Shown in pieces: positions 1 to 55,109 of a stretch of DNA of 64,000 bases; position 1 is the stretch's first letter, and the number at the start of each line of letters is the position of its first letter. Source of the DNA: Blastocystis sp. Blastoise (taxonomy: Eukaryota > Sar > Bigyra > Opalinata > Blastocystidae); NCBI GenBank assembly GCA_039096225.1, contig JBBPEB010000007.1, forward strand, positions 372,001 to 436,000. Reading direction: 5' to 3'. Below the pieces are notes generated by a model. It was not told the origin of the DNA, ran no database searches, and saw nothing but the letters and a program-made list of their open reading frames with translations. A program made the position numbers and the translations under genes.

Positions 1-37
<37 letters not shown>

Positions 38-5110: not shown

Positions 5111-5164
<54 letters not shown>

Positions 5165-37572: not shown

Positions 37573-37930
37573 TCTCAAAACAAATTTTATTCTAATAAAT
37601 TCTAAAAAATAGTATCATCATCATTTCTATATAGTATTACATACAATTAAATACTTGGATATATGAAATAAACCAATGAAGAACTAATAAACTAAGTCAA
37701 ATCTTTATAAAAATTTTTAGAAAAAGCAAATAATCATGGTTTTGTTCCTTTTATAAATAAAAACTCCCAAAATAGTTTCTTTTCTTGTAAACGGTCTTAT
37801 TAGACTGTAATAACGCTTATTTAATATTTAATTTTATTTATTCTACATCTCTAAAGGTTTTATATATCTATAAAAACAATAGAATGAACAAAGGAAGAAT
37901 ATTAATAATTTTTTTTTTTATTTTAAATAA
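37573..37930. promoter_or_regulatory. Intergenic region between Nup88-like gene and element array
   Basis: About 360 bp. It contains the upstream region of the Nup88-like gene and, by the insertion model, what was originally the 3' flank of the tRNA-Lys gene (its minus-strand T-rich continuation starts at 37930). No ORF is seen. Confidence 0.5.
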
Positions 37931-37971
37931 AAAATGTAAAAAAGAAACGCCTGATAGGGGGATCGAACCCC
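37931..37971 (-). repeat. Target-site duplication copy 3 (tRNA-Lys 3' part plus terminator)
   Basis: 41 bp identical to 55021-55061. It consists of the T-arm and 3' acceptor strand of tRNA-Lys (37948-37971, containing the B box at 37960-37969), then the T-rich Pol III terminator. It abuts the 3' end of element 1. The copy at 46429-46470 differs by one inserted base. Confidence 0.92.
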
Positions 37972-38290
37972 AAGTGTTAGCCAATTAAAGTAACCATTTG
38001 TACCAGAGAGAACGGTACACAAACAGAAAAAGAACATAAAAAAAAATTAAAATAAATTTAAAATATCATTTAATAACATTTGTTCATTTTGTTTTGTTTA
38101 AGTATGTTTTACCGCGGGGATATCACAACACATGTATTTCATATGCACCTTAAAATCACCAATAGGACTCTCTGAATGGGATTTGTGTACTGATACCAGA
38201 TCTAGTAACACAATTTTTACACCTCCCAAGCATTTCTGGGATATAGCTGATGTATAGGTACAATATACCTTTCATATCACGACTATATAT
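37972..38290 (-). ncRNA. Conserved 3'-terminal region of element 1 with end hairpin
   Basis: About 315 nt nearly identical to 46471-46785 in element 2, although other parts of the 3' UTR differ more. Near the end is a perfect 5-bp hairpin, GTACC/GGTAC, at 38000-38018. It is followed on the sense strand by GGTTACTTTAATTGGCT, which can fold as an anticodon-like stem-loop, and then directly by the target T-arm. By analogy with R2, this is probably the RNA recognised by the reverse transcriptase. Folding was judged by eye. Confidence 0.5.
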
Positions 38291-38539
38291 ATATAATTAA
38301 TATAATTTAATTAATTTAATTAATATAGAAGGTTAATAAGTAATAGAATAATTTTTTAAGTAATATTTTTAAGATAAGAGTTTAATAAACAGTAAGTAAG
38401 AGAAAAAGAGAAAATTCAATCTATAAATATATAGATATTCAAAGAAGAACTGATTATAAATAAAATCAGTATAAATAAGTTTTAATTAAATAAAATTAGA
38501 ATAAGATATAAAGAAAAGATTTCAATAAAAAGATATATA

Positions 38540-38780
38540 TAAAAAGTAGTAAATTATAAAATCAAGTAAAAGTAATATATCCAATATAATATATAGAGGA
38601 TAGGGAGTAGATATGTATAGTAAGTATAATATAAAGTAGAATTATTAATATAATATCCATTGTAATATGTAGAGGATAAGTAGTAGATAAATTTCATCAA
38701 TATAGTATAAGTAGTAGTAGTATATCCAATATAGTATATGGAGGATAAGTAGTAGTTTTATAGAGGATAATTAGTAGTAT
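38540..38780. repeat. Imperfect tandem repeats in element 1 3' UTR
   Basis: Roughly three to four units of about 60-90 bp. Each holds a variant of AATATA(A/G)TATATAGAGGATA followed by GTAGTAG/GGAGTAG. The equivalent block in element 2 is about 47055-47270. Confidence 0.6.
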
Positions 38781-38805
38781 ATATTATTCCATATAGTAAT
38801 ATATA

Positions 38806-41800
38806 TTACTCCATATTTCGTTGAGTTAATTCAATATGAGCAGCAGAAGAATGTAGTCTAGAAATATTTTTTGTAATTAGTCTAGAATCAGAAAGAGATA
38901 GTCTCCAATACTTATAGGCCCATTCTAAGACTATATCATTAATTTTTGATATTAAAAAGTATAAGTATCTTCCTTTGAGTTTTGAGACTTGAGATATATT
39001 ATGAATAGTAGATTCAGGAATTGTCCCAGAGGCACCAATGATAACAGTATAGTAAGAGATTTGTTTATTAGGGAAATCATGTTGTAATTTTTGTATAGCT
39101 TCATCATATGAATGATCTTTAGTATGTTTCATTTCTAAGAGAGTATCACGAGTTCCATCTACCTGTTCATAAGTAACACCAATTTCTACCATTCTTATTT
39201 CTTTCTCACTTGTAATTATAATATCTGGACGGCGATTAGCCCATTCTTCTTTATTCTTACCATCATATAGAATAGTATTCATTGATTTTTCTTGATTGAC
39301 TTTAAAAATAGTATAAGGAAGAGTTTTTGCCAAAGATCTAGTTAAACATTCTCGTATTTCATTATGTCTTTTGCTAATCAGATCGTGTCCATTTTCATTT
39401 CTAGAAATTCTAGCACAAGTAGTCATGATGTGGGTTTGACTATGTATTTTTGATTCATTTTTAGTTTTCAAACAATAAGGACATAAAGCGACAGTATCAT
39501 GTAGAGTAGGTTTTTTTCCTTTTGGATCTTGTCTTCTATAAGCCATTTCACCAGTATATAGGGTTCTCATTCGAAGATTCAATAAGGCACAGTATTTTGA
39601 AGGATTAATATGTTTTGTTTTGTATATCCATTTGTTACACGATATATTATTATTCAAGTATTTAGTATATTGTAAATAGGAGTATTCTTTCAGCATAGAA
39701 GCATGTCTTATTTTCAAAGATTCATTTAATAATTTACACATCTTACGTTTCACATCTTTCGCTTCTATAAATTTCGATATACTATTATCAGTACTTCTTA
39801 TTCTTATTCCAGCTCCATTTTTCGGATTATTTTCATAGTAACATATGTCCATGTTTAATGCAACTATAGCATCAATAGCTTTTCTTATATAAGGGAATGG
39901 ATGGTTCAGTGTAGTAAAGTCTATATCTAGAGGAATAACAGTATTATTTTCTTTCTTTGCTTTTAAGGGTTTGTTAATGTTGTTGATAGATAGATTAAAG
40001 AATACCAAATCTTTCTTTCTAGTTTCAGGGATTTCAGTAGGAATATGGCCTCTCATATAGTTTATTGGATCATTAATCACATATAGAGAATTTTGTAGAG
40101 TAGTATATCTAAGAGCATAATATAAAGTATTTCTAATATTTATATCATTTGAATTAGCTATTCTTACCAGTAGAGAAGCTTTACCAATATAATACCTATC
40201 TAACAACAAAGTAACACCAAGTCCACCATCTCGTATTGAAGTGCTATAAAAGTCTTTAGGCCAGACAGAAGAACATCCATTCCAATTCTTAACATTATTT
40301 CTTATTAGTACATCCAGTTCTTTTATTTTAAGTATATTAGTATCACCATTTCTAGCCAAGAATTCAATACAAGGAATAATATATTGACGAAGAGTTATTA
40401 ATTTTTGATGAGGACTAATAGGAATTGTGTTTAATGAATTTATTTTTTCTTTGATTTCATCTAAGGTATTCACCCAGAATTCTCTTCGTTTAGTAATGGA
40501 TTCACCCATAGGACATCCTAAATATCTTTGGATTTCAGTATCTTTAAGTAGAGTAATCACTTCATTATTATAAGTAGGAGGAGGAGGAGTATAAGTAAGT
40601 TTTCTATTTCCATCATTGGAATATTTCATCGCTAAACACTTACATTTATTAACCGATAGTTTCATATGATATATATTAAGTATTTCTTTTACCTTTCCTA
40701 AAAGAACTTCCGTATCTTCTTTATTGTTAGCTAGCAGGACGATATCATCTGCATAAGCATAAGCATTACTTTCTGATATAACAATAGGATTATTAGGAGT
40801 AGTGTTATCTTTAATATTCATCATCATTGCTTGATTATTGTTCAGGTAATTCAATAAAGGATTAAGTATAATATTGAATAGAAGAGGAGATAGTGGATCA
40901 CCTTGTCTTATTCCACGCTTTAAGTATATAGGATCTGTATATGAATTTTTGGTTAATCTTATGACAGTATTAGCAGAAGAGTATAAGGATAGAATAATAT
41001 TTCTGAAGTCTATAGGAAAGTTCATATATTGAAGAATTTGATGCATTAATCTTTGAGGTACCGTATCATAGGCCTTCTCCAAGTCAAGGAAAGTAAAATA
41101 GGCAGCAGTTTTAGCTCTTCTAGATAGTTTAAAGTTAGCTATGTAGTTTTGTAGTATGAAATTAAGTTCTTCACAACCAGGTATTCCAGATATAAATCCT
41201 TTTTGATATTTTGACATAAAGTTTTGTTTATTGTTTAGTTCATTCATGTAAGTAACCATTATAGAAGAAAGTATTTTTGATTCAGTATTTTGTAAAGCCA
41301 AAGGTCTCCAGTTTCCTAAGCTACTAGGATCCGATTTATTTTTGTCTAGTAGGCAAGTGATAGAGGAACTCCAAGATTTTAGAGTAATACCATTCGAACG
41401 ACATATTTCTAATATATAAGCCAATAGAGAACAAGCAGAAGAGGAGTATTTGTATACTTCATAAGGGAGACCATTAGGACCAGGAGTACTGTTATTTGGT
41501 AAAAATTTTAATGCATGTTTAATTCTTTCATAGGTTATCTTATTAAGGGCAGGAGGATTTAGTAATTGTTTAGTATTTGATTTTATAATATCTGGAAGTA
41601 ATATATTATCTGAAGTTTCTTGTGAGTCATATAGTTTCGTAAATTGTTCTTGTAAATCCTTAGAAGGTATTTCACAATATCTAGGAGTAGTTTTAGAGAA
41701 TACTTTACTTCTTAAGAAAGCTTTAGTATTCTTATCAAATTCAGATTGTATTTTCTTAGCATCATTAATAGAAGTAATTCTTATTTTAGCTTCTTTGAGT

Positions 41801-44800
41801 TGGTTAATATTCCATAAGCATGATTCTATCTCATTCATTATAAGATTTAATATCTCTTTCCATTGTTCTAGAGTAAGTAGAGGAGTATTATTATTTTCAT
41901 TATCTTTCTGTAAGATATTTAATATATTTATTTTTAATTCTTCATCTTCATCAAAGAGTGTAATAGATTGTAGTTTATTTTTCCAATTAAGGATAGACTC
42001 TGAAAGAGTAGAAGAGATAGTATAGGATTCAGTTTCAGGAATATTAGGTAATATAGTATGATTCAAATCGTATTTTAGAGTATCTAGATTACTTTTTAGA
42101 TTATTATAGTATTTCTTTAAAGCTTCAATTTCATTATCCGTAGATTTTCTGAAAGGATTATTATCAAAGAAATCATCATTCGTTTGTTTGAATTTATTAT
42201 TCATATGTATAGTGTTCGTATTATTAGAAGGAGTAGTAGTAGTAGGAGGAGGGGAAGTAGTAGAAGGAGTAGTAGTAGAAGTAGAGGGAGTAGTACTATT
42301 TATAGTAGTAGATCGATTAGTAGTAGTAGTATTATTAGTAGTAGTAGAAGGACTTAAATCCATATAGTTCTTATATTTATTATTCTTTTTATATTTATTT
42401 TTATTACTATAATTGTTTATAGGATGATTATAATTATTCTTTCTTCTATTATATCTATGTTGATTATAATCATGATTATTTCCAGGAATATTTTGAGTAT
42501 CATATCGATTTTGAGTATTCCCGTGATTATTTTGAGAAATATCATGCGTATCCATATCATCCATATTATTAGTAGTATTCTGAAGATTATTAGGAGTAGA
42601 ATCAATATGACTTCGATTTTGACCATAACCGCGATTATTTTGAGAAATATCATGAGTATTCATATACTTTTTTCTATATTGATTATTCTTTCTAGCATAT
42701 ATTTTCTTTGAGTTTCTATATTGGTTATTTGATCTATATGAATTGCCATTTCTATTCTTAATATTCTTTCCAGCATAAAAGTATTTATTTGAAGAATTCT
42801 TATCATTATAACTATTCTTTTGAGAAGGAGAATAACTATTATTCTTTCTGTATATAGTGTTGTATTTCTTAGTAGAACTATTGTTATTGAGATTATTATT
42901 ATGCCAAGATCTGTAAGTAGGAATAGAGTTATTATATATCCAGTTATAAAGTTCATTTTGAATATAATCACATATATTATTGAAGGAATTAATCATTTCG
43001 TTATTCATCTGTATAGTATTCGATTCATCAGAGGAGATAGGGAAAGGAGTAACAAGAGGTATGAGTTTATCTTCTATAAATTTGTTAAATCTAATGAAAC
43101 TTTTCCAATTTCCTAATTTATGTATAGCCATAGAAGAAAGTCGTCTTTTAGGAGTATTATCTACTTTGATAGTTTTTGAGAATTGTATAGTTTTCTGAAT
43201 ATTAATAGGAGAGTAAGTAGAAAGGAGATCTTCAGTATTAGGAATTCGAGGAGCCTTTATATAATCATCATATTTTGATTTATTCTTAGTATTCTTATTT
43301 TTATTTCCTTTTTGTGTAGAATTCTTTTTATTCTTTTGAGTTGAATTATTTGTAGAAGTATTTTCTTGAGTATTAGAAGATTCAATATCCATCATAGTAT
43401 CATTATTAGTATTCATAGTAGTAGAAGCTATTTCTTCTTGTATTTCCATAGTATTCATAGGAGTATTTGTTTCAGAATTACTCATGTTTTGATCTATATC
43501 TATATCAATATCTATAGTATTATTATTGTTTAAAATTTCATTCGTATTGATAGGAAAAGGAGTAGTAGTAGTTTCTATAGTAGTAGTAGTTTCTGTAGTA
43601 GTTTTCTTAGATTCATTTGTATCTTTATGAGTAGAAATAATAGGAGTAAAATTAAAATCTATATTAGAGAGACTTATATGATTTTCAAGAGGAATAGGAG
43701 AATCCATAGGAGAGGTAGCAGTTGAAGTGGATGTAGAAGAGATATTAATTATCGATTCATCAGAAGATATATCATAATATTCATTTTGATTCTGTATTGT
43801 AGTTGTATTATTCATTTGAGTATTAGTTTCATCAAGATTAATAGGATTTCTCTTATTTTGTATATTTTCTTCTTCATTAGCTATAGATGTAGTAATATCA
43901 TTGTTTGTAGTAATATTCATAGTATTATTTACTAAATCCTTATGAATAGATTCCTTTTGCTGATTAATATTATTTGTATTAGAATCAATAGTATTCAAAG
44001 TAGAAGGAATACTATTAATATCTATATCTAATTCCATATCTATATTTTCCATAGAACTATTAGGAGACAATTGAGTATTATTTATAGAAGGAGAAGATAT
44101 AATAGTATTGTTTATTATATTGGTATTTATTTGCTCTATATTCATAGAAGAAGATAAGTTTGTTGAATCTATATTAGAAGGAGATTCTATAGATATAGGA
44201 GATTCTATAGTAGAAGAAAGATTGACTGTAATAGGAGATTCTATAGATATAGGAGATTCTATAATAGTATGATCATCTGGATTTATAGTAGTATTCATGA
44301 TAATAGGAGTATCTATATTATTTGTAGTATTTGTAGAAGAAGAAGAAGTATGTATAGGAATAGAATTAGAATTAATTATAGAATTTGAGATAGAAGGAAT
44401 AGTAGGCTCAATAGTAGTTATAGAATCAGAAGGAACAGGAGATAAAAAGGTACCCATATTAGTATGTGTATTATCCTCAATTTCATTTTGTATATAGTTA
44501 TTTATTGTATCACTTGGAGTTATTCTTTCTTGTATAGGGATTTCATTTTGTTTCGCTACTTCATTTATTGGAGCACTAGAATTTCTATGTTTATTTGAAT
44601 AAATATTTCTGAGAGTTCGTAGTAAGTAGAACAGTGTATTCACACTTGACTGAGGGAATAACATGGAGAATGATTTTTGGCGTGTAATTCTTTTTTGAAT
44701 TCTAGGCCTATTTTTTCTTTTCTCGTAGATAAACATTAAAGTGAAGTGATTTATAAATTCCTTTAAGGATTCTATATTATTCCATTTCTTTCCATTTTTA

Positions 44801-46416
44801 TGTTTTTTTATTGTGTTATAACCAATTAGAAATTCAGGTTTTGCCGGGAAAAGCCAATTAAATTTAGTAGGAAAATCTTTAGGAGGAGAAGTAATAGTAT
44901 ATATATTAGTAGGTAATAGAATATTAAAATTATTTCCATGAGTAGTTTCAAGTATATTATCAATAGTAGGAATTTCATATTCACCAAGTATTTCATTAGG
45001 AGTATAGGTATGTACATCATCTAAAGTATCATAAGAGGATTCATGTTCTTCATCACTTAAGTTCATTGTAATTAATTCATCTTCGGAAGATATAGAAGAA
45101 TTATGTTGTATAACGTTTGATTGATTATTAGTAGTTAAAAAAGTATTATTATTAGTATTTATAGACGTATTTATTGAAGTGTTTGTAGATGATGGAGAAG
45201 ATAATTCCAATGTAGATATATTATTATTTTGAGCCCAAGAAGGAGGATTTGTATCATTTGGGAATATTCTTTGATGTAATAATTGACTAAGTGTAGGAGT
45301 AGGAGGAGAATTAGAAGATATAGGAAAATCTGAGGATTCACTAGGAGTATTTTCATTCATAGAGTTATCAATATTGTTTTCATTCAATTCCATATTTATA
45401 TTACTTTTTTGTATCTCAGCATCCATTTTATCATTCTCATCAACTACTGTTGTATCAATATTGATTACATTGCTTTCTTCAGTATTCATCGAAACATCTT
45501 TCATTTCATTTTCATTTCGTATTTCTTTACTTTGAGAGGAATTAGGAATAATTTCTTGTAGATTCTGAGTCGTTTCATTCATAGAGGGATTCATAGTAGT
45601 TTCATTCATAGTATTAGATTCATCTAAGGGTATTGTAGTAGTTTCATCATTCGTAGTACCAAAGTTCGTAGAGAATGTAGAAGTAGGTTTCATAGTATTT
45701 CGAGGATCATCATAATCAATCCAAATATTGATATCAGTAGACCAAGAGCTTTGCACAGAGTAGTTCGAGGACCATGAAGTTTTAGTAGAGGAGAAATTCC
45801 AATCATTCTTTTTCGTAGTATCATCATTTTTCGTAGATAGAGAGTTTACAGCATCCTTTGTAGACATAGTAGGTTCAACAAGTTCATCACCATCTTTCTT
45901 CTTTCTTAAACTCATAAAATCAGTACATACAGGAGACATCTTTCTCTTTTTCGCAAGTGTAGAAGTTTCAATGTAGAAGACTTCAGTTTCTAGAGGTATA
46001 GGACTGTTCTGGTTGTGTAGAGGTAATGTAGTTGTAGAGATAGATGTAGAAGAAGAAATATCCTTTTCAGGATTATTTTTGGGTTGTAAATAACCGTTAT
46101 TATTTGGTGGATCTTTCAAAGTAATAGAAGAACCACGGGAGGCTTCGGAATTTCCTGGGATTTCACATCCGGAGAAATTCTCTTTTTCCTGAATTGGAAG
46201 ACCATTCTGAGCATATTTTATTTGTTTTTGATTTTTTGAAGCCCCAAGGAATTCTTGAGTATTTCCACCATCACTAATCATCTTATCATCTTCTCTAGCA
46301 CACACAGAAGAAGAAACGGAAGAATTCTGACCTTTATAAACTGATTGTAAAAGATCATGTTGGAGTTTTGACTCCGGAACAGAAGCATTGTTACTTATTT
46401 GGATTGCTGATTGCAT
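38806..46416 (-). CDS. LINE polyprotein: reverse transcriptase + zinc knuckle + restriction-like endonuclease (element 1)
   Basis: Start chosen at ATG 46416 (MQSAIQISNNASVPESKLQ), because homology to the second copy begins here and the upstream open frame only runs through target DNA; 2,536 residues. The N-terminal ~1,400 residues are Ser/Thr/Asn-rich and end in a basic Asn/Arg/Tyr/Lys-rich segment, a plausible nucleic-acid-binding region. No C2H2 or Myb finger was recognised. Reverse transcriptase about 1640-2080: FLDLEKAYDTVP, GIRQGDPLSPLLFNIIL and the catalytic AYAYADDIVLL at about 1888. A CCHC-like knuckle CPYC...H...C lies at about 2312. The restriction-like endonuclease RPDIIITSEKE...EIGVTYE lies at about 2397. 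The order is RT, zinc knuckle, RLE, as in R2/CRE/NeSL-type LINEs. It makes and inserts cDNA by target-primed reverse transcription. No stops or frameshifts. Confidence 0.9.
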   Translation of the reverse strand: MQSAIQISNNASVPESKLQHDLLQSVYKGQNSSVSSSVCAREDDKMISDGGNTQEFLGASKNQKQIKYAQNGLPIQEKENFSGCEIPGNSEASRGSSITLKDPPNNNGYLQPKNNPEKDISSSTSISTTTLPLHNQNSPIPLETEVFYIETSTLAKKRKMSPVCTDFMSLRKKKDGDELVEPTMSTKDAVNSLSTKNDDTTKKNDWNFSSTKTSWSSNYSVQSSWSTDINIWIDYDDPRNTMKPTSTFSTNFGTTNDETTTIPLDESNTMNETTMNPSMNETTQNLQEIIPNSSQSKEIRNENEMKDVSMNTEESNVINIDTTVVDENDKMDAEIQKSNINMELNENNIDNSMNENTPSESSDFPISSNSPPTPTLSQLLHQRIFPNDTNPPSWAQNNNISTLELSSPSSTNTSINTSINTNNNTFLTTNNQSNVIQHNSSISSEDELITMNLSDEEHESSYDTLDDVHTYTPNEILGEYEIPTIDNILETTHGNNFNILLPTNIYTITSPPKDFPTKFNWLFPAKPEFLIGYNTIKKHKNGKKWNNIESLKEFINHFTLMFIYEKRKNRPRIQKRITRQKSFSMLFPQSSVNTLFYLLRTLRNIYSNKHRNSSAPINEVAKQNEIPIQERITPSDTINNYIQNEIEDNTHTNMGTFLSPVPSDSITTIEPTIPSISNSIINSNSIPIHTSSSSTNTTNNIDTPIIMNTTINPDDHTIIESPISIESPITVNLSSTIESPISIESPSNIDSTNLSSSMNIEQINTNIINNTIISSPSINNTQLSPNSSMENIDMELDIDINSIPSTLNTIDSNTNNINQQKESIHKDLVNNTMNITTNNDITTSIANEEENIQNKRNPINLDETNTQMNNTTTIQNQNEYYDISSDESIINISSTSTSTATSPMDSPIPLENHISLSNIDFNFTPIISTHKDTNESKKTTTETTTTIETTTTPFPINTNEILNNNNTIDIDIDIDQNMSNSETNTPMNTMEIQEEIASTTMNTNNDTMMDIESSNTQENTSTNNSTQKNKKNSTQKGNKNKNTKNKSKYDDYIKAPRIPNTEDLLSTYSPINIQKTIQFSKTIKVDNTPKRRLSSMAIHKLGNWKSFIRFNKFIEDKLIPLVTPFPISSDESNTIQMNNEMINSFNNICDYIQNELYNWIYNNSIPTYRSWHNNNLNNNSSTKKYNTIYRKNNSYSPSQKNSYNDKNSSNKYFYAGKNIKNRNGNSYRSNNQYRNSKKIYARKNNQYRKKYMNTHDISQNNRGYGQNRSHIDSTPNNLQNTTNNMDDMDTHDISQNNHGNTQNRYDTQNIPGNNHDYNQHRYNRRKNNYNHPINNYSNKNKYKKNNKYKNYMDLSPSTTTNNTTTTNRSTTINSTTPSTSTTTPSTTSPPPTTTTPSNNTNTIHMNNKFKQTNDDFFDNNPFRKSTDNEIEALKKYYNNLKSNLDTLKYDLNHTILPNIPETESYTISSTLSESILNWKNKLQSITLFDEDEELKINILNILQKDNENNNTPLLTLEQWKEILNLIMNEIESCLWNINQLKEAKIRITSINDAKKIQSEFDKNTKAFLRSKVFSKTTPRYCEIPSKDLQEQFTKLYDSQETSDNILLPDIIKSNTKQLLNPPALNKITYERIKHALKFLPNNSTPGPNGLPYEVYKYSSSACSLLAYILEICRSNGITLKSWSSSITCLLDKNKSDPSSLGNWRPLALQNTESKILSSIMVTYMNELNNKQNFMSKYQKGFISGIPGCEELNFILQNYIANFKLSRRAKTAAYFTFLDLEKAYDTVPQRLMHQILQYMNFPIDFRNIILSLYSSANTVIRLTKNSYTDPIYLKRGIRQGDPLSPLLFNIILNPLLNYLNNNQAMMMNIKDNTTPNNPIVISESNAYAYADDIVLLANNKEDTEVLLGKVKEILNIYHMKLSVNKCKCLAMKYSNDGNRKLTYTPPPPTYNNEVITLLKDTEIQRYLGCPMGESITKRREFWVNTLDEIKEKINSLNTIPISPHQKLITLRQYIIPCIEFLARNGDTNILKIKELDVLIRNNVKNWNGCSSVWPKDFYSTSIRDGGLGVTLLLDRYYIGKASLLVRIANSNDINIRNTLYYALRYTTLQNSLYVINDPINYMRGHIPTEIPETRKKDLVFFNLSINNINKPLKAKKENNTVIPLDIDFTTLNHPFPYIRKAIDAIVALNMDICYYENNPKNGAGIRIRSTDNSISKFIEAKDVKRKMCKLLNESLKIRHASMLKEYSYLQYTKYLNNNISCNKWIYKTKHINPSKYCALLNLRMRTLYTGEMAYRRQDPKGKKPTLHDTVALCPYCLKTKNESKIHSQTHIMTTCARISRNENGHDLISKRHNEIRECLTRSLAKTLPYTIFKVNQEKSMNTILYDGKNKEEWANRRPDIIITSEKEIRMVEIGVTYEQVDGTRDTLLEMKHTKDHSYDEAIQKLQHDFPNKQISYYTVIIGASGTIPESTIHNISQVSKLKGRYLYFLISKINDIVLEWAYKYWRLSLSDSRLITKNISRLHSSAAHIELTQRNME

Positions 46417-46428
46417 GAGGATAAAAAT

Positions 46429-46470
46429 AAAATGTAAAAAAGAAATCGCCTGATAGGGGGATCGAACCCC
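46429..46470 (-). repeat. Target-site duplication copy 2, between the two elements
   Basis: 42 bp, the same as 55021-55061 except for one extra T (gaaatcgcc versus gaaacgcc). It marks the 3' boundary of element 2 and the 5' boundary of element 1. It contains a B box at 46459-46468 but no A box, so it is a half tRNA gene. Confidence 0.92.
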
Positions 46471-46785
46471 AAGTGTTAGCCAATTAAAGTAACCATTTGT
46501 ACCAGAGAGAACGGTACACAAACAGAAAAAGAACATAAAAAAATTAAAATAAATTTAAAATATCATTTAATAACTTTTGTTCATTTTGTTTTGTTTAAGT
46601 ATGTTTTACCACGGGGATATCACAACACATGTATTTCATATGCACCTTAAAATAACCAATAGGACTCTCTGAATGGGATTTGTGTACTGATACCAGATCT
46701 AGTAACACAATTTTAACACCTCCCAAGCATTTCTGGGATATAGCTGATGTATAGGTACAATATACCTTTCATATCACGACTATAT
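46471..46785 (-). ncRNA. Conserved 3'-terminal region of element 2 with end hairpin
   Basis: Nearly identical to 37972-38290. The terminal hairpin GTACC/GGTAC lies at 46499-46517. Likely template-recognition RNA for target-primed reverse transcription; inferred from its conservation and terminal position. Confidence 0.5.
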
Positions 46786-47301
46786 ATATGTAATTAATAT
46801 AATTTAATTGATTTAATTAATATTAAAGGTTAATAAGTAGTAGAATAATTTTTTAAGTAATATTTTTAAGATAAGAGTTTAATAAATAGTAAGTAAGAGA
46901 AAAAGAGAAAATTCAATCTATAAATATATAGATATTCAATCAGAGCTGATTATAAATTCAATCAGTATAAATAAGTTTTCATTAAATAGAATTAGAATAA
47001 GATATAAAGAAAAGATTTCAATAAAAAGATATATATAAAAAGTAGTAAATTATAAAATCAAGTAAAAGTAATATATCCAATATAATATATAGAGGATAGG
47101 GAGTAGATATATATAGTAAGTATAATATAAAGTAGAATTATTAATATAATATCCATTGTAATATGTAGAGGATAAGTAGTAGATAAATTTCATCAATATA
47201 GTATAAGTAGAAGTAGTATATTCAATATAGTATATGGAGGATGAATAGAAGTATTATAGAGGATAATTAGTAGTATATATTATTCCATATAGTAATATAT
47301 A

Positions 47302-50300
47302 TTATTCAATATTTCGTTGAGTTAGTTCAATATGAGCAGCAGAAGAATGTAGTCTAGAAATATTTTTTGTAATTAGTCTAGAATCAGAAAGAGATAGTCT
47401 CCAATACTTATAGGCCCATTCTAAGACTATATCATTAATTTTTGATATTAAAAAGTATAAGTATCTTCCTTTGAGTTTTGAGACTTGAGATATATTATGA
47501 ATAGTAGATTCAGGAATTGTCCCAGAGGCACCAAGTATAACAGTATAGTAGGAGATTTGTTTATTAGGGAAATCATGTTGTAATTTTTGTATAGCTTCAT
47601 CATATGAATGATCTTTAGTATGTTTCATTTCTAAGATAGTATCACGAGTTCCATCTACTTGTTCATAAGTAACACCAATTTCTACCATTCTTATTTCTTT
47701 CTCACTTGTAATTATAATATCTGGACGACGATTAGCCCATTCCTCTTTATTCTTACCATCATATAGAATAGTATTCATTGATTTTTCTTGATTGACTTTA
47801 TAAATAGTATAAGGAAGAGCTTTTGCCAAAGATCTAGTTAAACATTCTCGTATTTCATTATGTCTTTTGCTAATCAGATCGTGTCCATTTTCATTTCTAG
47901 AGATTCTAGCACAAGTAGTCATGATGTGTGTTTGACTATGTATTCTTGATTCATTTTTAGTTTTCAAACAATAAGGACATAAAGCGACAGTATCATGTAG
48001 AGTAGGTTTCTTTCCTTTCGGATCTTGTCTTCTATAAGCCATCTCACCAGTATATAGGGTTCTCATTCGAAGATTCAATAAGGCACAGTATTTTGAAGGA
48101 TTAATATGTTTTGTTTTGTATATCCATTTGTTACACGATATATTATTATTCAAATATTTAGTATATTGCAAATAGGAGTATTCTTTCAGCATAGAAGCAT
48201 GTCTTATTTTCAAAGATTCATTTAATAATTTACACATCTTACGTTTCACATCTTTCGCTTCTATAAATTTCGATATACTATTATCAGTACTTCTTATTCT
48301 TATTCCAGCTCCATTTTTCGGATTATTTTCATAGTAACATATGTCCATGTTTAAAGCAACTATAGCATCAATTGCTTTTCTTATATAAGGGAAGGGATGG
48401 TTCAGTGTAGTAAAGTCTATATCTAGAGGAATAATAGTATTATTTTCTTTCTTTGCTTTTAAGGGTTTGTTAATATTGTTGATAGATAGATTAAAGAATA
48501 CCAAATCTTTCTTTCTAGTTTCAGGGATTTCAGTAGGAATATGGCCTCTCATATAGTTTATTGGATCATTAATCACATATAGAGAATTTTGTAGAGTAGT
48601 ATATCTAAGAGCATAATATAAAGTATTTCTAATATTTATATCATTTGAATTAGCCATTCTTACCAGTAGAGAAGCTTTACCAATATAGTACCTATCTAAC
48701 AACGAAGTAACACCAAGTCCACCATCTCGTATTGAAGTGCTATAAAAGTCTTTAGGCCAGACAGAAGAACATCCATTCCAATTCTTAACATTATTTCTTA
48801 TTAGTACATCCAGTTCTTTTATTTTAAGTATATTAGTATCACCATTTCTAGCCAAGAATTCAATACAAGGAATAATATATTGACGAAGAGTTATTAATTT
48901 TTGATGAGGACTAATAGGAATAGTATTTAAAGAATTTATTTTTTCTTTGATTTCATCTAACGTATTCACCCAGAATTCTCTTCGTTTAGTAATGGATTCA
49001 CCCATAGGACATCCTAAATATCTTTGGATTTCAGTATCTTTAAGTAGAGTAATCACTTCATTATTATAAGTAGGAGGAGGAGGAGTATACGTAAGTTTTC
49101 TATTTCCATCATTGGAATATTTCATCGCTAAACACTTACATTTATTAACCGATAGTTTCATATGATATATATTAAGTATTTCTTTTACCTTTCCTAAAAG
49201 AACTTCCGTATCTTCTTTATTGTTAGCTAGCAGGACGATATCATCTGCATAAGCATAAGCATTACTTTCTGATATAACAATAGGATTATTAGGAGTAGTG
49301 TTATCTTTAATATTCATCATCATGGCTTGATTATTGTTCAGGTAATTCAATAAAGGATTAAGTATAATATTGAATAGAAGAGGAGATAGGGGATCACCTT
49401 GTCTTATTCCACGCTTTAAGTATATAGGATCTGTATATGAATTTTTGGTTAATCTTATAACAGTATTAGCAGAAGAGTATAAGGATAGAATAATATTTCT
49501 GAAGTCTATAGGGAAGTTCATATATTGAAGAATTTGATGCATTAATCTTTGAGGTACCGTATCATAGGCCTTCTCCAAGTCGAGGAAAGTAAAATAGGCA
49601 GCAGTTTTAGCTCTTCTAGATAGTTTAAAGTTAGCTATGTAGTTTTGTAGTATGAAATTAAGTTCTTCACAACCAGGTATTCCAGATATAAATCCTTTTT
49701 GATATTTTGACATAAAGTTTTGTTTATTGTTTAGTTCATTCATGTAGGTAACCATTATAGAAGAAAGTATTTTTGATTCAGTATTTTGTAAAGCCAAAGG
49801 TCTCCAGTTTCCTAAGCTACTAGGATCCGATTTATTTTTGTCTAGTAGGCAAGTGATAGAGGAACTCCAAGATTTTAGAGTAATACCATTCGAACGACAT
49901 ATTTCTAATATATAAGCCAATAGAGAACAAGCAGAAGAGGAGTATTTGTAAACTTCATAAGGGAGACCATTAGGACCAGGAGTACTGTTATTTGGTAAAA
50001 ATTTTAATGCATGTCTAATTCTTTCATAGGTTATCTTATTAAGGGCAGGAGGATTTAGTAATTGTTTAGTATTTGATTTTATAATATCTGGAAGTAATAT
50101 ATTATCTGAAGTTTCTTGTGAATCATATAGTTTCGTAAATTGTTCTTGTAAATCCTTAGAAGGTATTTCACAATATCTAGGAGTAGTTTTAGAGAATACT
50201 TTACTTCTTAAGAAAGCTTTAGTATTCTTATCAAATTCGGATTGTATTTTCTTAGCATCATTAATAGAAGTAATTCTTATTTTAGCTTCTTTAAGTTGGT

Positions 50301-53300
50301 TAATATTCCATAAGCATGATTCTATCTCATTCATTATAAGATTTAATATCTCTTTCCATTGTTCTAGAGTAAGTAGAGGAGTATTATTATTTTCATTATC
50401 TTTCTGTAAGATATTTAATATATTTATTTTTAATTCTTCATCTTCATCAAAGAGTGTAATAGATTGTAGTTTATTTTTCCAATTAAGGATAGACTCAGAA
50501 AGAGTAGAAGAGATAGTATAGGATTCAGTTTCAGGAATATTAGGTAATATAGTATGATTCAAATCGTATTTTAGAGTATCTAGATTACTTTTTAGATTAT
50601 TATAGTATTTCTTTAAAGCTTCAATTTCATTATCCGTAGATTTTCTGAAAGGATTATTATCAAAGAAATCATCATTCGTTTGTTTGAAATTATTATTCAT
50701 ATGTATAGTGTTAGTATTATTAGTAGGAGTAGTAGTAGTAGGAGGAGGGGAAGTAGTAGGAGGAGAAGCAGTAGAAGGAGAAGTAGTATCAGTAGAGGGA
50801 GTAGTACCATTTATAGTAGTAGATCGATTAGTAGTAGTAGTAGTAGAAGGACTTAAATCCATATAGTTCTTATATTTTTTATTCTTTTTATATTTGTTTT
50901 TATTACTATAATTGTTTATAGGATGATTATAATTATTCTTTCTTCTATTATATCTATGTTGATTATAATCATGATTATTTCCAGGAATATTTTGAGTATC
51001 ATATCGATTTTGAGTATTCCCATGATTATTCTGAGAAATATCATGAGTATTCATAGCATCCGTATTATTAGTAGTATTCTGAAGATTATTAGGAGAAGAA
51101 CCAGTATAGTTTTGATTTTGACCATAACCGCGATTATTTTGAGAAATATCATGCATATCCATATACTTCTTTCTATATTGATTATTCTTTCTAGTATATG
51201 TTTTCTTTAAGTTTCTATATTGGTTATTTGATCTATATGAATTGCTATTTCTATTTTTTCCAGCATAAGAATATTTATTTGAAGAATTCTTATCATTATA
51301 GTTATTCCTTTGAGAAGGAGAATAACTATTATTCTTTCTGTATATAGTATTATATTTCTTAATAGAACTGTTGTTATTGAGATTATTATCATGCCAAGAT
51401 CTATAAGTAGGAATAGAATTATTATATATCCAGTTATAAAGTTCATTTTGAATATAATCACATATATTATTGAAGGAATTAATCATTTCGTTATTCATCT
51501 GTATAGTATTCGATTCATCAGAGGAGTTAGGGAAAGGAGTAACAAGAGGTATGAGTTTATCTTCTATAAATTTGTTAAATCTAATGAAACTTTTCCAATT
51601 TCCTAATTTATGTATAGCCATGGAAGAAAGTCGTCTTTTAGGAGTATTATCTACTTTGATAGTTTTTGAGAATTGTATAGTTTTCTGAATATTAATAGGA
51701 GAGTAAGTAGAAAGGAGATCTTCAGTATTAGGAATTCGAGGAGCCTTTATATAATCATCATATTTTGATTTATTCTTAGTATTCTTATTTCTATTTCCTT
51801 TTTGTGTAGAATTCTTTTTATTCTTTTGAGTTGAATTATTTGTAGAAGTATTTTCTTGAGTATTAGAAGATTCAATATCCATCATAGTATCATTATTAGT
51901 ATTCATAGTAGTAGAAGCTATTTCTTCTTGTATTTCCATAGTATTCATAGGAGTATTTGTTTCAGAATTACTCATGTTTTGATCTATATCTATATCAATA
52001 TCTATAGTATTATTATTGTTTAAAATTTCATTCGTATTGATAGGAAGAGGAGTAGTAGTAGTTTCTATAGTAGTAGTAGTTTCTGTAGTAGTCTTCTTAG
52101 ATCCATTTATGTCTTTTTGAGTAGAATTAAGTGGAGTAAAATTAAAATCTATATTCGAGAGACTTATATGATTTTCAAGAGGAATAGGAGAATTCATAGG
52201 AGAGGTAGTAGTTGAAGTGGATGTAGAAGAAATATTAATTATCGATTCATCAGAAGATACATCATAGTATTCATTTCGATTCTGTATTGTAGTTGTATTA
52301 TTCATTTGAGTATTAGTTTCATCAAGATTAATAGTATTTCTCTTATTTTGTGTATTTTCTTCTTCATTAGTTATAGATGTAGTAATCTCCTTGTTTGTAG
52401 TAATATTCATAGTATTATTTACTAAATCCTTATGGATAGATTCCTTTTGCTGATTAATATTATTTGTATTAGAATCGATAGTATTCAAAGTAGAAGGAAT
52501 ACTATTAATATCTATATCTAATTCCATATCTATATTTTCTATAGAACTATTAGGAGACAATTGAGTATTATTTATAGAAGGAGAAGATATAATAGTATTG
52601 TTTATTATATTGGTATTTATTTGATCTATATTCATAGAAGAAGATAAGTTTGTTGAATCTATATTAGAAGGAGATTCTATAGATATAGGAGATTCTATAG
52701 TAGAAGAAATATTGACTGTAATAGGAGATTCTATAGATATAGAAGATTCTATTATAGTATGATCATCTGGATTTATAGTAGTATTCATGATAATAGGAGT
52801 ATCAATATTATTTGTAGTATTTGTAGAAGAAGAAGAAATATGTATAGGAATAGAATTAGAATTAATTATAGAATTTGAGATAGAAGGAATAGTAGGTTCA
52901 ATAGTAGTTATAGAATCAGAAGGAACAGGAGATAAAAAGGTACCCATATTAGTATGTGTATTATCCTCAATTTCATTTTGTATATAGTTATTTGTTGTAT
53001 CACTTGGAGTTATTCTTTCTTGTATAGGGATTTCATTTTGTTTCGCTACTTCATTTATTGGAGCACTAGAATTTCTATGTTTATTTGAATAAATATTTCT
53101 GAGAGTTCGTAGTAAGTAGAACAGTGTATTCACACTTGACTGAGGGAATAACATGGAGAATGCTTTTTGGCGGGTAATTCTTTTTTGAATTCTAGGCCTA
53201 TTTTTTCTTTTCTCGTAGATAAACATTAAAGTGAAGTGATTTATAAATTCCTTTAAGGATTCTATATTATTCCATTTCTTTCCATTTTTATGTTTTTTTA

Positions 53301-55008
53301 TTGTGTTATAACCAATTAGAAATTCAGGTTTTGCCGGGAAAAGCCAATTAAATTTAGTAGGAAAATCTTTAGGAGGAGAAGTAATAGTATATATATTAGT
53401 AGGAAAAGAAAGAATAAATTCATTATTTTCAATAGTATTTAGTATAGTTTCATTTGTAGGAATCTCATTTTCATCTATTATATCATTAGGAGTAAGTATA
53501 GGTATTTCTATATTAGAATCAGAATTCGTATATATATCTTGATCCTCTTGTTCGGTATTATTTAAATTGATAGAAATAGGTTCATCTTCAGAGGATAAAA
53601 GGGAGGTAGTTTGTATAGAAGGATGAATAATTTCATTTCCAATAGGAGTATTATTTGTAATTGTAGCAGTATCTATTATAGTAGTATTTGAAGATGTAGA
53701 TAAAGAAGGAGATAGTTCTAGTGTAGGATTTCTTGCCCAAGAAGGAGGATTCGTATCATTTGGGAATATTCTATTGTGTAGTAATTGACTAAGTGTAGGA
53801 GTAGGAGGAGAATCAGAAGATTCAGGAGAATTTATAGCATCAGGAGAGTTTATAGAATCAGAAGAATCCATAGAAAAAGAAGAATCCATAGGAGCAGAAG
53901 AATCAAGAGCATTAGAAGAAACCATAGAAGCAGAAGAATAAATAGAATTAGTAGAATCAACAAAAGCAGAAGAATCAATAGCATTAGAAGAATTCATTAA
54001 ATTAGTAGATTCAGAAGTATTTAAAACAGTAGAATTAGATTGTGTAATGTTAACAGTAGGAATATTTTCATGAGTAGAAATAATAGATAAATTAGTAGAT
54101 TCGTTAGTAGAATTGTTCAACAGGGATTCTTTTGTAGAGGACACATTTTCAGGAGTAGATAACGCATTAGAAGAAATAATAGTAGTAGAATTTTCATTAA
54201 GAGTGTTTGTAGCCACCGAAATAACCATAGGTACATCATTTTGTTGATTTAGAGTCGTATTTTGTGTAGGAAGTCCAAGATTGGTAGTAGATTTTTGAGT
54301 AGATTTCACGTTTTGTTTAGGATCATCATAATCAATCCAAATGTTTACATTAGTAGACCAAGACTTAGCAAAGGCATCAGAAGACCAACCAGTAGAAGAC
54401 CAAGATTCATCTTTCTTTTCAGAAGTATTTTCAGTAGAAGGTTTCAAAGGTTCAGAATTCACTTGTAGAGAAGAGTCAAGAGGAGGGTTCAAAGGAGTAT
54501 CCACTCTTTTTCGAATAGACTTGTATTGTGTAGATATCGGAGACATAATTCGTTTCTTAGCCGAGGAAGTAGTATCTACGTAGAGGGTATCACTTTCAGA
54601 AAGTACCCAGTTAGAAGAATTGTTTGTAGTTGTAGTAGTTGAACCAGTAAGAGATAAGTCTATTAATTCTTTAGTATTTAAAGAATAATCTTGTTTATTT
54701 TGAGGATCTATTTTAGTAGTAGTAGAATCACGGGAGAACTCGGAGTTTTGTGGGATTTCAAATCCGGAAAAAACCAATTTTGATCTTGGATCACCATTTT
54801 CATCATAATTTTTTTGTTTTTCGTTTTTCTCATCTTCCACAGATTTAATTCGTTTCTCGTTTATCTGTAAACTGTTCTCATCGCTAGGGCTAGGAGCAGA
54901 AGAAGACGCCAGGTTCGTAGACCCAGATTTATCTCTGATCTTCAGATCAACTTGGAGTTTTGACTCCGGAACTTCACCGTTGTTACTAAAATGGATTGCT
55001 GATTGCAT
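47302..55008 (-). CDS. LINE polyprotein: reverse transcriptase + zinc knuckle + restriction-like endonuclease (element 2)
   Basis: Start ATG 55008 (MQSAIHFSNNGEVPESKLQ); the open frame reaches upstream to an ATG-like codon inside the tRNA gene, but that part is target DNA. 2,568 residues, uninterrupted. Residues about 1-535 share only blocks with element 1 (FSGFEIPQNSEFSRD, NIWIDYDDP, SPPTPTLSQLLH with RIFPNDTNPPSWA). From FPTNIYTITSPPKDFPT onward the two proteins are almost identical. This copy has a Ser-rich minisatellite at 53815-54010 not seen in element 1. It carries the same YADD reverse transcriptase, CPYC...H...C knuckle and RPDIII...EIGVTYE endonuclease. Some substitutions are conservative (for example IGASGT to LGASGT near the C-terminus), which suggests coding constraint. 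Expected to form an RNP with its own mRNA. Confidence 0.9.
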   Translation of the reverse strand: MQSAIHFSNNGEVPESKLQVDLKIRDKSGSTNLASSSAPSPSDENSLQINEKRIKSVEDEKNEKQKNYDENGDPRSKLVFSGFEIPQNSEFSRDSTTTKIDPQNKQDYSLNTKELIDLSLTGSTTTTTNNSSNWVLSESDTLYVDTTSSAKKRIMSPISTQYKSIRKRVDTPLNPPLDSSLQVNSEPLKPSTENTSEKKDESWSSTGWSSDAFAKSWSTNVNIWIDYDDPKQNVKSTQKSTTNLGLPTQNTTLNQQNDVPMVISVATNTLNENSTTIISSNALSTPENVSSTKESLLNNSTNESTNLSIISTHENIPTVNITQSNSTVLNTSESTNLMNSSNAIDSSAFVDSTNSIYSSASMVSSNALDSSAPMDSSFSMDSSDSINSPDAINSPESSDSPPTPTLSQLLHNRIFPNDTNPPSWARNPTLELSPSLSTSSNTTIIDTATITNNTPIGNEIIHPSIQTTSLLSSEDEPISINLNNTEQEDQDIYTNSDSNIEIPILTPNDIIDENEIPTNETILNTIENNEFILSFPTNIYTITSPPKDFPTKFNWLFPAKPEFLIGYNTIKKHKNGKKWNNIESLKEFINHFTLMFIYEKRKNRPRIQKRITRQKAFSMLFPQSSVNTLFYLLRTLRNIYSNKHRNSSAPINEVAKQNEIPIQERITPSDTTNNYIQNEIEDNTHTNMGTFLSPVPSDSITTIEPTIPSISNSIINSNSIPIHISSSSTNTTNNIDTPIIMNTTINPDDHTIIESSISIESPITVNISSTIESPISIESPSNIDSTNLSSSMNIDQINTNIINNTIISSPSINNTQLSPNSSIENIDMELDIDINSIPSTLNTIDSNTNNINQQKESIHKDLVNNTMNITTNKEITTSITNEEENTQNKRNTINLDETNTQMNNTTTIQNRNEYYDVSSDESIINISSTSTSTTTSPMNSPIPLENHISLSNIDFNFTPLNSTQKDINGSKKTTTETTTTIETTTTPLPINTNEILNNNNTIDIDIDIDQNMSNSETNTPMNTMEIQEEIASTTMNTNNDTMMDIESSNTQENTSTNNSTQKNKKNSTQKGNRNKNTKNKSKYDDYIKAPRIPNTEDLLSTYSPINIQKTIQFSKTIKVDNTPKRRLSSMAIHKLGNWKSFIRFNKFIEDKLIPLVTPFPNSSDESNTIQMNNEMINSFNNICDYIQNELYNWIYNNSIPTYRSWHDNNLNNNSSIKKYNTIYRKNNSYSPSQRNNYNDKNSSNKYSYAGKNRNSNSYRSNNQYRNLKKTYTRKNNQYRKKYMDMHDISQNNRGYGQNQNYTGSSPNNLQNTTNNTDAMNTHDISQNNHGNTQNRYDTQNIPGNNHDYNQHRYNRRKNNYNHPINNYSNKNKYKKNKKYKNYMDLSPSTTTTTNRSTTINGTTPSTDTTSPSTASPPTTSPPPTTTTPTNNTNTIHMNNNFKQTNDDFFDNNPFRKSTDNEIEALKKYYNNLKSNLDTLKYDLNHTILPNIPETESYTISSTLSESILNWKNKLQSITLFDEDEELKINILNILQKDNENNNTPLLTLEQWKEILNLIMNEIESCLWNINQLKEAKIRITSINDAKKIQSEFDKNTKAFLRSKVFSKTTPRYCEIPSKDLQEQFTKLYDSQETSDNILLPDIIKSNTKQLLNPPALNKITYERIRHALKFLPNNSTPGPNGLPYEVYKYSSSACSLLAYILEICRSNGITLKSWSSSITCLLDKNKSDPSSLGNWRPLALQNTESKILSSIMVTYMNELNNKQNFMSKYQKGFISGIPGCEELNFILQNYIANFKLSRRAKTAAYFTFLDLEKAYDTVPQRLMHQILQYMNFPIDFRNIILSLYSSANTVIRLTKNSYTDPIYLKRGIRQGDPLSPLLFNIILNPLLNYLNNNQAMMMNIKDNTTPNNPIVISESNAYAYADDIVLLANNKEDTEVLLGKVKEILNIYHMKLSVNKCKCLAMKYSNDGNRKLTYTPPPPTYNNEVITLLKDTEIQRYLGCPMGESITKRREFWVNTLDEIKEKINSLNTIPISPHQKLITLRQYIIPCIEFLARNGDTNILKIKELDVLIRNNVKNWNGCSSVWPKDFYSTSIRDGGLGVTSLLDRYYIGKASLLVRMANSNDINIRNTLYYALRYTTLQNSLYVINDPINYMRGHIPTEIPETRKKDLVFFNLSINNINKPLKAKKENNTIIPLDIDFTTLNHPFPYIRKAIDAIVALNMDICYYENNPKNGAGIRIRSTDNSISKFIEAKDVKRKMCKLLNESLKIRHASMLKEYSYLQYTKYLNNNISCNKWIYKTKHINPSKYCALLNLRMRTLYTGEMAYRRQDPKGKKPTLHDTVALCPYCLKTKNESRIHSQTHIMTTCARISRNENGHDLISKRHNEIRECLTRSLAKALPYTIYKVNQEKSMNTILYDGKNKEEWANRRPDIIITSEKEIRMVEIGVTYEQVDGTRDTILEMKHTKDHSYDEAIQKLQHDFPNKQISYYTVILGASGTIPESTIHNISQVSKLKGRYLYFLISKINDIVLEWAYKYWRLSLSDSRLITKNISRLHSSAAHIELTQRNIE
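53815..54010. repeat. Ser-rich coding minisatellite in element 2
   Basis: Units of about 18-27 bp with an AGAAGAATCNATAG-type core. On the minus strand they encode DSS(A/F)xMDSS-like repeats in the N-terminal region. Absent from the same place in element 1. Confidence 0.75.
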
Positions 55009-55027
55009 GAGGATATAAAAAAAATGT

Positions 55028-55033
55028 AAAAAA
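55028..55033 (-). terminator. Pol III terminator of tRNA-Lys
   Basis: A run of six T on the minus strand, 5 nt after the discriminator base, followed by more T-rich sequence. It lies in the duplicated target, so each half-tRNA copy carries the same terminator. Confidence 0.8.
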
Positions 55034-55037
55034 GAAA

Positions 55038-55109
55038 CGCCTGATAGGGGGATCGAACCCCTGACCACTGGATTAAAAGTCAAGCGCTCTACCGCTGAGC
55101 TAACCAGGC
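55038..55109 (-). tRNA. tRNA-Lys (anticodon UUU)
   Basis: 72 nt folding as a full cloverleaf: acceptor GCCTGGT/ATCAGGC (one G-T pair), D-arm GCTC/GAGC, anticodon stem CTTGA/TCCAG with one T-C mismatch, loop CTTTTAA giving anticodon TTT, T-arm AGGGG-TTCGATC-CCCCT, discriminator G. No intron. A box TAGCTCAGCGG at about 55092-55102 and B box GGTTCGATCC at 55050-55059 are intact. It is the target of the two adjacent retrotransposons, which lie immediately downstream and leave it complete. Confidence 0.93.
55050..55059 (-). promoter_or_regulatory. B box of tRNA-Lys internal promoter
   Basis: GGTTCGATCC is an exact match to the eukaryotic B-box consensus bound by TFIIIC. It is duplicated at 46459-46468 and 37960-37969 without an accompanying A box. 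Confidence 0.85.

Follow-up and report, generated by a model that had tools for sequence, protein, structure and literature searches.

Two sister families of LINEs with an R2-like restriction-like endonuclease in the tRNA-Lys(UUU) and tRNA-Phe(GAA) genes of Blastocystis sp. Blastoise

Organization of the tRNA-Lys(UUU) locus

The window analysed here is a stretch of 64,000 nucleotides from Blastocystis sp. Blastoise (G000:C29:372001-436000; the genome comprises 33.3 Mb in 34 contigs), in which two copies of a long interspersed nuclear element (LINE), named A and B, were found head to tail on the minus strand after a tRNA-Lys(UUU) gene. They belong to family K, which together with its sister family F makes up two LINE families with an R2-like restriction-like endonuclease (RLE), K lying in tRNA-Lys(UUU) and F in tRNA-Phe(GAA). 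In the direction of the minus strand, the intact tRNA-Lys(UUU) comes first, then elements A and B, each closed by a 24-nt tRNA 3' end, and then the native flank. The features are the following (window positions; ORF, open reading frame):

55038..55109, minus strand: intact tRNA-Lys(UUU), host of the array (ARAGORN; Rfam RF00005, 64 bits)
55038..55061, minus strand: copy 1 of the 24-nt tRNA 3' end (T-stem from the 2nd nucleotide, T-loop, acceptor 3' strand, discriminator base), within the intact tRNA
46447..46470, minus strand: copy 2 of this 24-nt stretch, bordering element A on its 3' side
37948..37971, minus strand: copy 3 of this 24-nt stretch, between the 3' end of element B and the native flank
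46471..55037, minus strand: LINE element A, family K, young type, near-identical in C10, C13, C14 and C33
37972..46446, minus strand: LINE element B, an older type of family K, divergent from A in the 5' 1.2 kb and 95.8% identical to it over 7.4 kb
55009..55037, minus strand: T-rich leader of A, 29 nt, from the last tRNA base to the ATG, constant at 5/5 filled tRNA-Lys loci
46417..46446, minus strand: leader of B, 30 nt, with one extra A at the joint
47302..55008, minus strand: ORF of A, 2568 aa, including the stop codon
38806..46416, minus strand: ORF of B, 2536 aa, including the stop codon
49012..49830, minus strand: RVT_1 reverse transcriptase of A, YADD (C29:421012-421830)
40516..41334, minus strand: RVT_1 reverse transcriptase of B, YADD (C29:412516-413334)
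39415..39483, minus strand: CCHC-type knuckle of B, ahead of the endonuclease, CPYC..H..C
39106..39228, minus strand: PD..E..K..Y core of the restriction-like endonuclease of B
46471..47301, minus strand: 3' untranslated region of A, its last base joining the T-stem
37972..38805, minus strand: 3' untranslated region of B
37925..37947, minus strand: native 3' flank of this tRNA-Lys locus, T-rich and terminator-like, displaced to the far side of the array

The 3' ends of A and B are alike, each reading ...GGCTAACACTT joined to GGGGTTCGATCCCCCTATCAGGCG. This confirms an earlier sequence-only reading of the window, according to which two elements join tRNA-Lys(UUU) at the identical nucleotide. Its further statement that the elements join a tRNA 3' half is right for these two joints and wrong for the 5'-most unit, which adjoins a complete tRNA gene. 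Measured from the positions of the 24-mer, the units are 8591 nt (A) and 8499 nt (B) long, and each contains one long ORF starting 29 nt (A) or 30 nt (B) past the last tRNA base; the frames come out longer if upstream starts are taken. The G+C content is about 18% across most of the window and 25-30% inside the elements.

Distribution of family K in the genome

The genome-wide searches score the best candidates only, and all copy counts given below are lower bounds. In the first tRNA census the best 63 of 1493 candidates were scored; the gene counts rest on pattern searches instead. Using a 321-nt query for the K 3' end, which included the T-arm and left 290 other nucleotides by which copies elsewhere would still be matchable, 11 3' ends were found, all of them attached to a T-arm. 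Each of the 11 reads ...GGCTAACACTT followed directly by GGGGTTCGATCC, and GGGGTTCGATC is the partner at the joint in 11/11. The 24-mer GGGGTTCGATCCCCCTATCAGGCG occurs 17 times in 33.3 Mb, six times in full tRNA genes and 11 times at element 3' ends; the reversed pattern gave 0 occurrences in the same 33.3 Mb, so the repeat is not due to chance.

The 5' half of tRNA-Lys(UUU), searched with up to 2 mismatches, occurs six times, every time in an intact 72-nt gene. Five of these genes (C10, C13, C14, C29 and C33) are filled, an element 5' end standing next to them, and the one on C1 is empty. The upstream flanks of the five filled loci differ to within a few bases of the gene. Past the K 3' ends, another K-like 5' end follows in 8/11 and native flank in 3/11. 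Ten units could be measured, seven of 8591 nt and the others of 8592, 8499 and 20,625 nt; the eleventh (C23) has no measurable start.

The right flank of filled C10 equals that of empty C1, with 99.8-100% identity over 1.5 kb and 99.7% in a piece of 1 kb that lies about 45 kb away. C10 thus joins the element to a flank that is empty in C1, and the 24-nt part at the 3' joint is therefore target and not element. It should be added that C10 (L016) and C1 (L009) have their right flank in common to at least about 45 kb and different left flanks, which may reflect a terminal exchange at the tRNA, a second haplotype or a misjoin.

Family F in tRNA-Phe(GAA)

A search with the reverse transcriptase (RT) gave 24 rows; 11 of them are the K copies, and the other 13 have 38-49% identity. 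Six of these 13 were traced downstream, and five of them end in ...TTTAAATTAATT joined to GGTTCGATCCCGGGTCAAGGCG; in the sixth, at C23:269-272 kb, other DNA intervenes before the 3' end is reached. The target of this family F, which is 44% identical to K, is tRNA-Phe(GAA). The F 3' ends join GGTTCGATC in 8/8, and a 3'-end query against the whole genome returned the same eight places and no others. The corresponding 22-mer occurs 15 times, seven in full tRNA-Phe genes and eight at element 3' ends. The tRNA-Phe 5' half was found seven times with up to 3 mismatches, always in an intact gene; no further tRNA-Phe gene was found, and a variant with more than 3 mismatches in the 5' half would escape this pattern search. 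Six of the seven genes are filled, the one on C25 being empty, and two pairs of the filled loci have upstream flanks in common.

The F 5' ends were collected with a query starting at the first base past the tRNA. It matched at 12 places, in 12/12 from base 1, of which six follow full tRNAs and six a tRNA 3' part. An RVT_1 profile search of the whole genome gave 21 rows, 20 above the Pfam cut-off, and all 20, assigned by position, are 11 K and 9 F copies; the remaining row, on C20, is weak (26.2 bits, below the cut-off). The proposal of a tRNA-gene-specific LINE with an R2-type RLE, joined at its 3' end inside the T-arm, was borne out by 11/11 K 3' ends and by 8/8 3' ends of the sister family in tRNA-Phe.

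The copy at C23:269-272 kb sits 31 kb from the nearest tRNA-Phe gene and lacks a 3' end, so its link to a tRNA is a matter of inference. The break in this copy falls about 0.7 kb into L061 (G000:C23:272301-274500); the intervening DNA, in which TTTTTTACGAGTTGACAA-like motifs are repeated in either orientation, appears to be a further mobile element.

Element proteins and their relationship

RVT_1 was recognized in both ORFs (2.5e-32 and 3.1e-32), and the ORFs carry YADD, a CPYC-x13-H-x4-C knuckle, RHN and RPD..E. In an alignment of 22 RLE-type proteins the RLE columns C826, R864-H865, P911-D912, K947 and Y951 are invariant, and C829, H843 and C848 nearly so. The earlier description of a single ORF with a YADD RT, a CCHC-like knuckle and RPD...E holds. 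The match of a single sequence to the R2 endonuclease alone is weak (5.0 bits). Judged from their sequences, the ORF products are RLE-type LINE proteins in which a LINE-type RT is combined with a C-terminal CCHC knuckle and a PD..D/E..K endonuclease. The RT part is open, without stops, in 11/11 K copies.

The Pfam scan of both ORFs returned RVT_1 alone and no apurinic/apyrimidinic-type (APE) endonuclease. The N-terminal 1470 aa gave no Pfam match (no APE, zinc finger, Myb or ULP protease) and no C2H2 or C2HC pattern; loose W-spacing matches in this part were not counted as evidence for a Myb domain. The 5' part of the ORF, about 1.2 kb, is modular: short pieces aside, A and B can be aligned only from about nt 1231 (window 53800-55008 and 45230-46416), and family F has two N-terminal forms (L064-L073).

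In the RT tree K and F are sisters (support 100) on the RLE side, and this first tree did not resolve their placement among RLE lineages. A reduced tree joined K+F to the RLE-type proteins P0003, P0007, P0030 and P0031 with support 97. In the approximately unbiased (AU) test a grouping with an R2DM-like set, which held one source-named R2 and, like the other set, was chosen after the first tree, was rejected (p 0.009). A grouping with a NeSL/Utopia-like set, anchored by the ULP-bearing P0079 and the RNase-H-bearing P0054 and holding no named NeSL sequence, was not rejected, nor established, at p 0.19. Because the trees differ, the sets were named after the first of them, one outgroup row fell on the wrong side and the composition of K and F is unusual, no clade is claimed.

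The best PDB sequence matches were R2 (R2, R2Tg) and LINE-1 chains. The best of them, to R2 proteins, scored 2.4e-41 with K alone and 2.6e-187 with the profile of 22 proteins, which includes a contribution from these relatives. Among about 5.8 billion proteins, near-identical matches came from this genome only and the next best was 32% identical; in NCBI a family K protein is WA158_008271 (Blastocystis sp. Blastoise). No relatives were found in IMG/VR contigs. As to the distant relatives themselves, a resemblance of the start of P0003 to a ubiquitin-protease signature was not confirmed by Pfam, and P0019, a more distant LINE, carries a UCH domain.

Junctions, leader and the repeated stretch

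Within the T-stem, the K 3' joint follows the first base (tRNA-Lys) and the F 3' joint the second or third (tRNA-Phe). Both stand at the 5' edge of box B, whose consensus is GGTTCGANNCC. Two element 5' words were absent from the 30 tRNA loci inspected, 14 of tRNA-Lys(CUU) among them, so the element must distinguish more than box B.

Upstream of each array stands the whole tRNA gene, and from its last base follow an element-constant T-rich leader of about 30 nt and then the ORF, which starts 29-33 nt past the tRNA. Past the element 3' end lie the partial tRNA 3' end and, beyond the junction, the native terminator. The 5' joint is fixed at the last tRNA base in F and within one base in K.

From the window alone, a 41-42 bp duplication that includes the Pol III terminator had been proposed. 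At C29 there is indeed a repeat of 41-43 nt: its copies on the tRNA side and on the far side match over 24+19 nt, and the middle copy contains one additional A, past which it diverges. Such agreement is what a staggered cut of about 41-43 bp, with a plain target-site duplication including the locus's own terminator, would leave, and R9, an RLE LINE, has been reported with an exceptionally long duplication, to judge from a title cited in PMC5035012. At the other loci the two sides do not correspond. On the tRNA side of K, the 21 nt past the acceptor are identical at 5/5 filled loci with different upstream flanks. The far side is native and locus-specific, with TTTCTTTTTTACATTTTTTATTT at C29, TTTCTTTTTTATTTTTTTTTTT at C10 (the same as at empty C1) and ATTTCTTTTTATCTTTTT at C33. 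The far-side flank therefore differs from the tRNA side at two of the three readable loci: the tRNA side begins TTTCTTTTTTACATTT.., as against TTTCTTTTTTATTTTT.. at C10 and ATTTCTTTTTATC.. at C33, and it is at C29 that 19 nt agree. Likewise, the F leaders begin TAATTTTATTTTT at 12/12 5' ends, whereas the native flanks begin ATTTCTTTTT at 3/3 readable places (C25, C4:2424143 and C4:1586108).

With a constant flank on the tRNA side and differing native flanks, it is the tRNA part alone that is repeated throughout; this part measures 24 nt in K and, one T being ambiguous, 22 or 23 nt in F. A plain 41-bp duplication as a general rule is thus ruled out at most loci. Gene conversion among tRNA-side joints could have erased locus-specific copies, and even so we regard a long staggered cut as quite unlikely. 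Of the earlier proposal there stand the 41-43 nt repeat at C29 and the common T-arm base, at which all other K 3' ends found are joined; the duplication of about 41 bp is not general, C10, C33 and F differing from it. As to whether the 41 bp belong to the element or to the target, the 24-nt tRNA part is target, as shown by C10 and empty C1, and the leader beyond the acceptor is constant with the element. The 19-nt agreement at C29 may go back to an origin of the K leader at that locus or to the truncation of an older unit there.

A tRNA-like fold of the element 3' end together with the orphan T-arm was considered and rejected, since K gave a loose multi-arm shape (z -0.91 and -0.27) and F z 0.06, no better than shuffles. 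An Rfam scan of 37900-47000 returned nothing at E up to 1. In the F 3' region, at L058:1860-2005 and 35-180 nt before the end, two strong hairpins were predicted (z -4.95, 0/200 shuffles as good), which may be a candidate RNA recognition element for the RT. No hairpin signal like this was seen in the K stretches folded.

Age of the copies and growth of the arrays

Over the first 1400 nt, 7/12 other K 5' ends, at four other loci, equal element A, six showing no difference and one a 1-nt shift. Over the last 1700 nt, 7/10 other K 3' ends differ by 0-2 bases, and C29B, C23 and C14 unit 3 by far more. These sequence comparisons fit a recent activity of K. In the K arrays of mixed age (C29, C13 and C14), the young units are next to the tRNA in 3/3. 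In the F array of C15 (G000:C15:722056-752983) the 5'-end types alternate like, unlike, like, unlike, a pattern that looks like the result of duplication of a two-unit block.

Few true insertions could also lead to near-identical units at unlinked loci, if identical tRNA genes and arrays had exchanged sequence by ectopic recombination or gene conversion and most copies had spread in this way. The right flank common to C10 and C1 over at least about 45 kb, with the left flank not shared, would agree with this, as would the resemblance of the C15 array to a duplicated dimer and the two pairs of filled tRNA-Phe loci with common upstream flanks. However, the upstream flanks of the five tRNA-Lys loci differ near the gene, so that conversion tracts would have to begin within the 72-nt tRNA. 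The open RT parts in 11/11 K copies and the near-zero divergence fit a recent burst of retrotransposition, and recombination would account for the spread of the elements, not for the first insertion. We consider it unlikely that most copies arose in this way.

Part of the picture could, in principle, be an artefact of assembly, in which identical arrays were misjoined, so that some loci, the C10/C1 pair among them, would not exist. Assembly is difficult where units are identical over kilobases; in C10 the right flank of C1 is combined with a different left flank, and C23 ends in or near an array. On the other hand, the units of the window array are distinguishable (95.8%) and have a unique flank, and the F units differ by several percent between copies and yet have the same joints. 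An artefact of this kind appears to us very unlikely.

Proposed insertion pathway

Based on the above results, we think it probable that K and F are RLE-type LINEs that enter one site of one tRNA gene species by target-primed reverse transcription and leave the tRNA gene whole. A nick would be made by the RLE in the bottom strand of the T-stem, where box B has its 5' edge, and from this nick the element RNA would be copied, beginning at its 3' end. Copying primed at the nick would give the fixed 3' junction that is observed. The 5' end would then be resolved in such a way that the segment from the T-stem to the discriminator base (22-24 nt) stands on both sides. The source of the repeated tRNA 3' end might be a staggered cut of the second strand where the tRNA ends, or else a tRNA stretch that the RNA template brings along. 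The 5' joint could form by annealing of tRNA-bearing cDNA, a step modelled on R2, whose 5' junctions can arise by cDNA annealing to the upstream target (PMC11331408). Further insertions at the intact gene, together with some array duplication, would produce the head-to-tail arrays. K and F would have come from a common ancestor, with a different tRNA and nearly the same place in the T-arm kept.

All 13 tRNA-Lys(UUU) and tRNA-Phe genes found, filled or empty, are intact in sequence. Given this and the near-saturation of the genes, the tRNA gene is probably spared by the insertion, and the near-saturation argues strongly that the occupied genes would work.

Several points weigh against this pathway. 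It is derived from sequence comparisons. The K joints show a one-A variation at 2/13, so the 5' joint is not perfectly fixed, and the K 5' ends were collected with a query containing the tRNA end and are a biased sample. The window's own locus, C29, is the only one that still fits the long 43-nt duplication. A role of the leader as terminator is conjectural, T-runs being common at 18% G+C and weak evidence. Finally, the F arrays have no clear order of age outward from the tRNA, and repeated insertion at the intact gene is therefore not the sole way in which arrays grow; strict outward ageing, which holds in K and fails in F, is no more than suggestive.

A more tentative idea, which we think rather unlikely, is that the element RNA is read out with the tRNA and freed by the tRNA 3'-end endonuclease at the discriminator base, so that the maturation of a host tRNA would define the LINE. 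R2, for comparison, is released from rRNA by a ribozyme. If the idea is true, the 5' end of the element would be set at the first base past the tRNA, as in the 12/12 F 5' ends, and it would explain how ORFs can begin 29-33 nt on, without room for an ordinary promoter. A whole tRNA gene would be re-created with each insertion, making this a reverse-transcription counterpart of tRNA-preserving prophages.

Comparison with known systems

The sequence-only reading named no described equivalent, which does not hold, as RLE LINEs specific for tRNA genes are in print. In Kojima & Jurka 2015, NeSL-1_TV is tRNA-Pro-specific, LIN15_SM tRNA-Arg-specific and LIN25_SM tRNA-Glu-specific, and they are placed near the RLE-type NeSL clade; like K and F, they are RLE-type LINEs specific to a tRNA gene species (PMC4640811). 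They differ from K and F in their tRNAs and in their hosts, _TV and _SM standing for Trichomonas and the planarian Schmidtea. The marks of the nematode NeSL clade, a ULP cysteine protease and N-terminal zinc fingers, were not found in the N-terminal part of K and F.

With R2 of 28S rDNA, K and F share the order of RT, CCHC and RLE, the one ORF and one fixed site in a multicopy RNA gene. Unlike R2, whose clade has N-terminal zinc fingers and a Myb domain, they have a different target and neither of these domains that could be found, and the R2DM-like grouping was rejected. R2 is described in 10-20% of Drosophila rDNA genes (PMC12192640), as against 5/6 and 6/7 genes for K and F. R9 of rotifers, in contrast, has rDNA as its target, and its long duplication is not seen at most K and F loci.

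The TRE5 and TRE3 elements of Dictyostelium are also LINEs tied to tRNA genes. As described in a 2018 review of retrotransposons at Pol III genes, they are APE-type members of the L1 clade that insert 40-54 bp upstream or 40-150 bp downstream of tRNA genes, and box B matters for their targeting (PMC5911963). Unlike them, K and F have no APE domain, and their junction lies inside the T-arm rather than at a distance. The same review, in which the TRE elements stand at a distance, contains neither 'restriction-like' nor 'NeSL' (PMC5911963). Dada-tK DNA transposons of fish sit in tRNA-Lys genes (PMC8869645). These differ from K and F in having a transposase and no reverse transcriptase.

Bacterial prophages and integrative elements, which work with site-specific recombinases and a carried attachment site, insert in the 3' portion of tRNA genes, and a whole gene remains. 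K and F resemble them in the place of insertion and in the whole gene left behind, and differ from them in that prophages do not use reverse transcription. Among the papers listed by searches of the open-access PMC literature, none was seen to describe the K and F families or Blastocystis transposons.

Thus, tRNA-specific RLE LINEs are already known, and what is unusual here is the preservation of the tRNA, the near-saturation and the retargeting between Lys and Phe. Site-specific LINEs usually inactivate the gene copy that they enter and live on copy number. The filling of 5/6 tRNA-Lys(UUU) and 6/7 tRNA-Phe(GAA) genes is hard to imagine unless the tRNAs stay functional, and the anatomy of the insertions shows a possible way. 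As a natural pair, K and F make the choice and change of target by an RLE LINE directly testable. A compact site in a universal gene, with its function kept, would be of interest for targeted insertion studies.

Other observations

Two small contigs, C9 (33 kb) and C12 (19 kb), have matching tRNA sets and are probably copies of the organelle genome. Within the window, a long ORF rich in asparagine runs on the minus strand over positions 2-5899, truncated at the edge of the window; it has several dynein-type AAA domains and probably encodes midasin.

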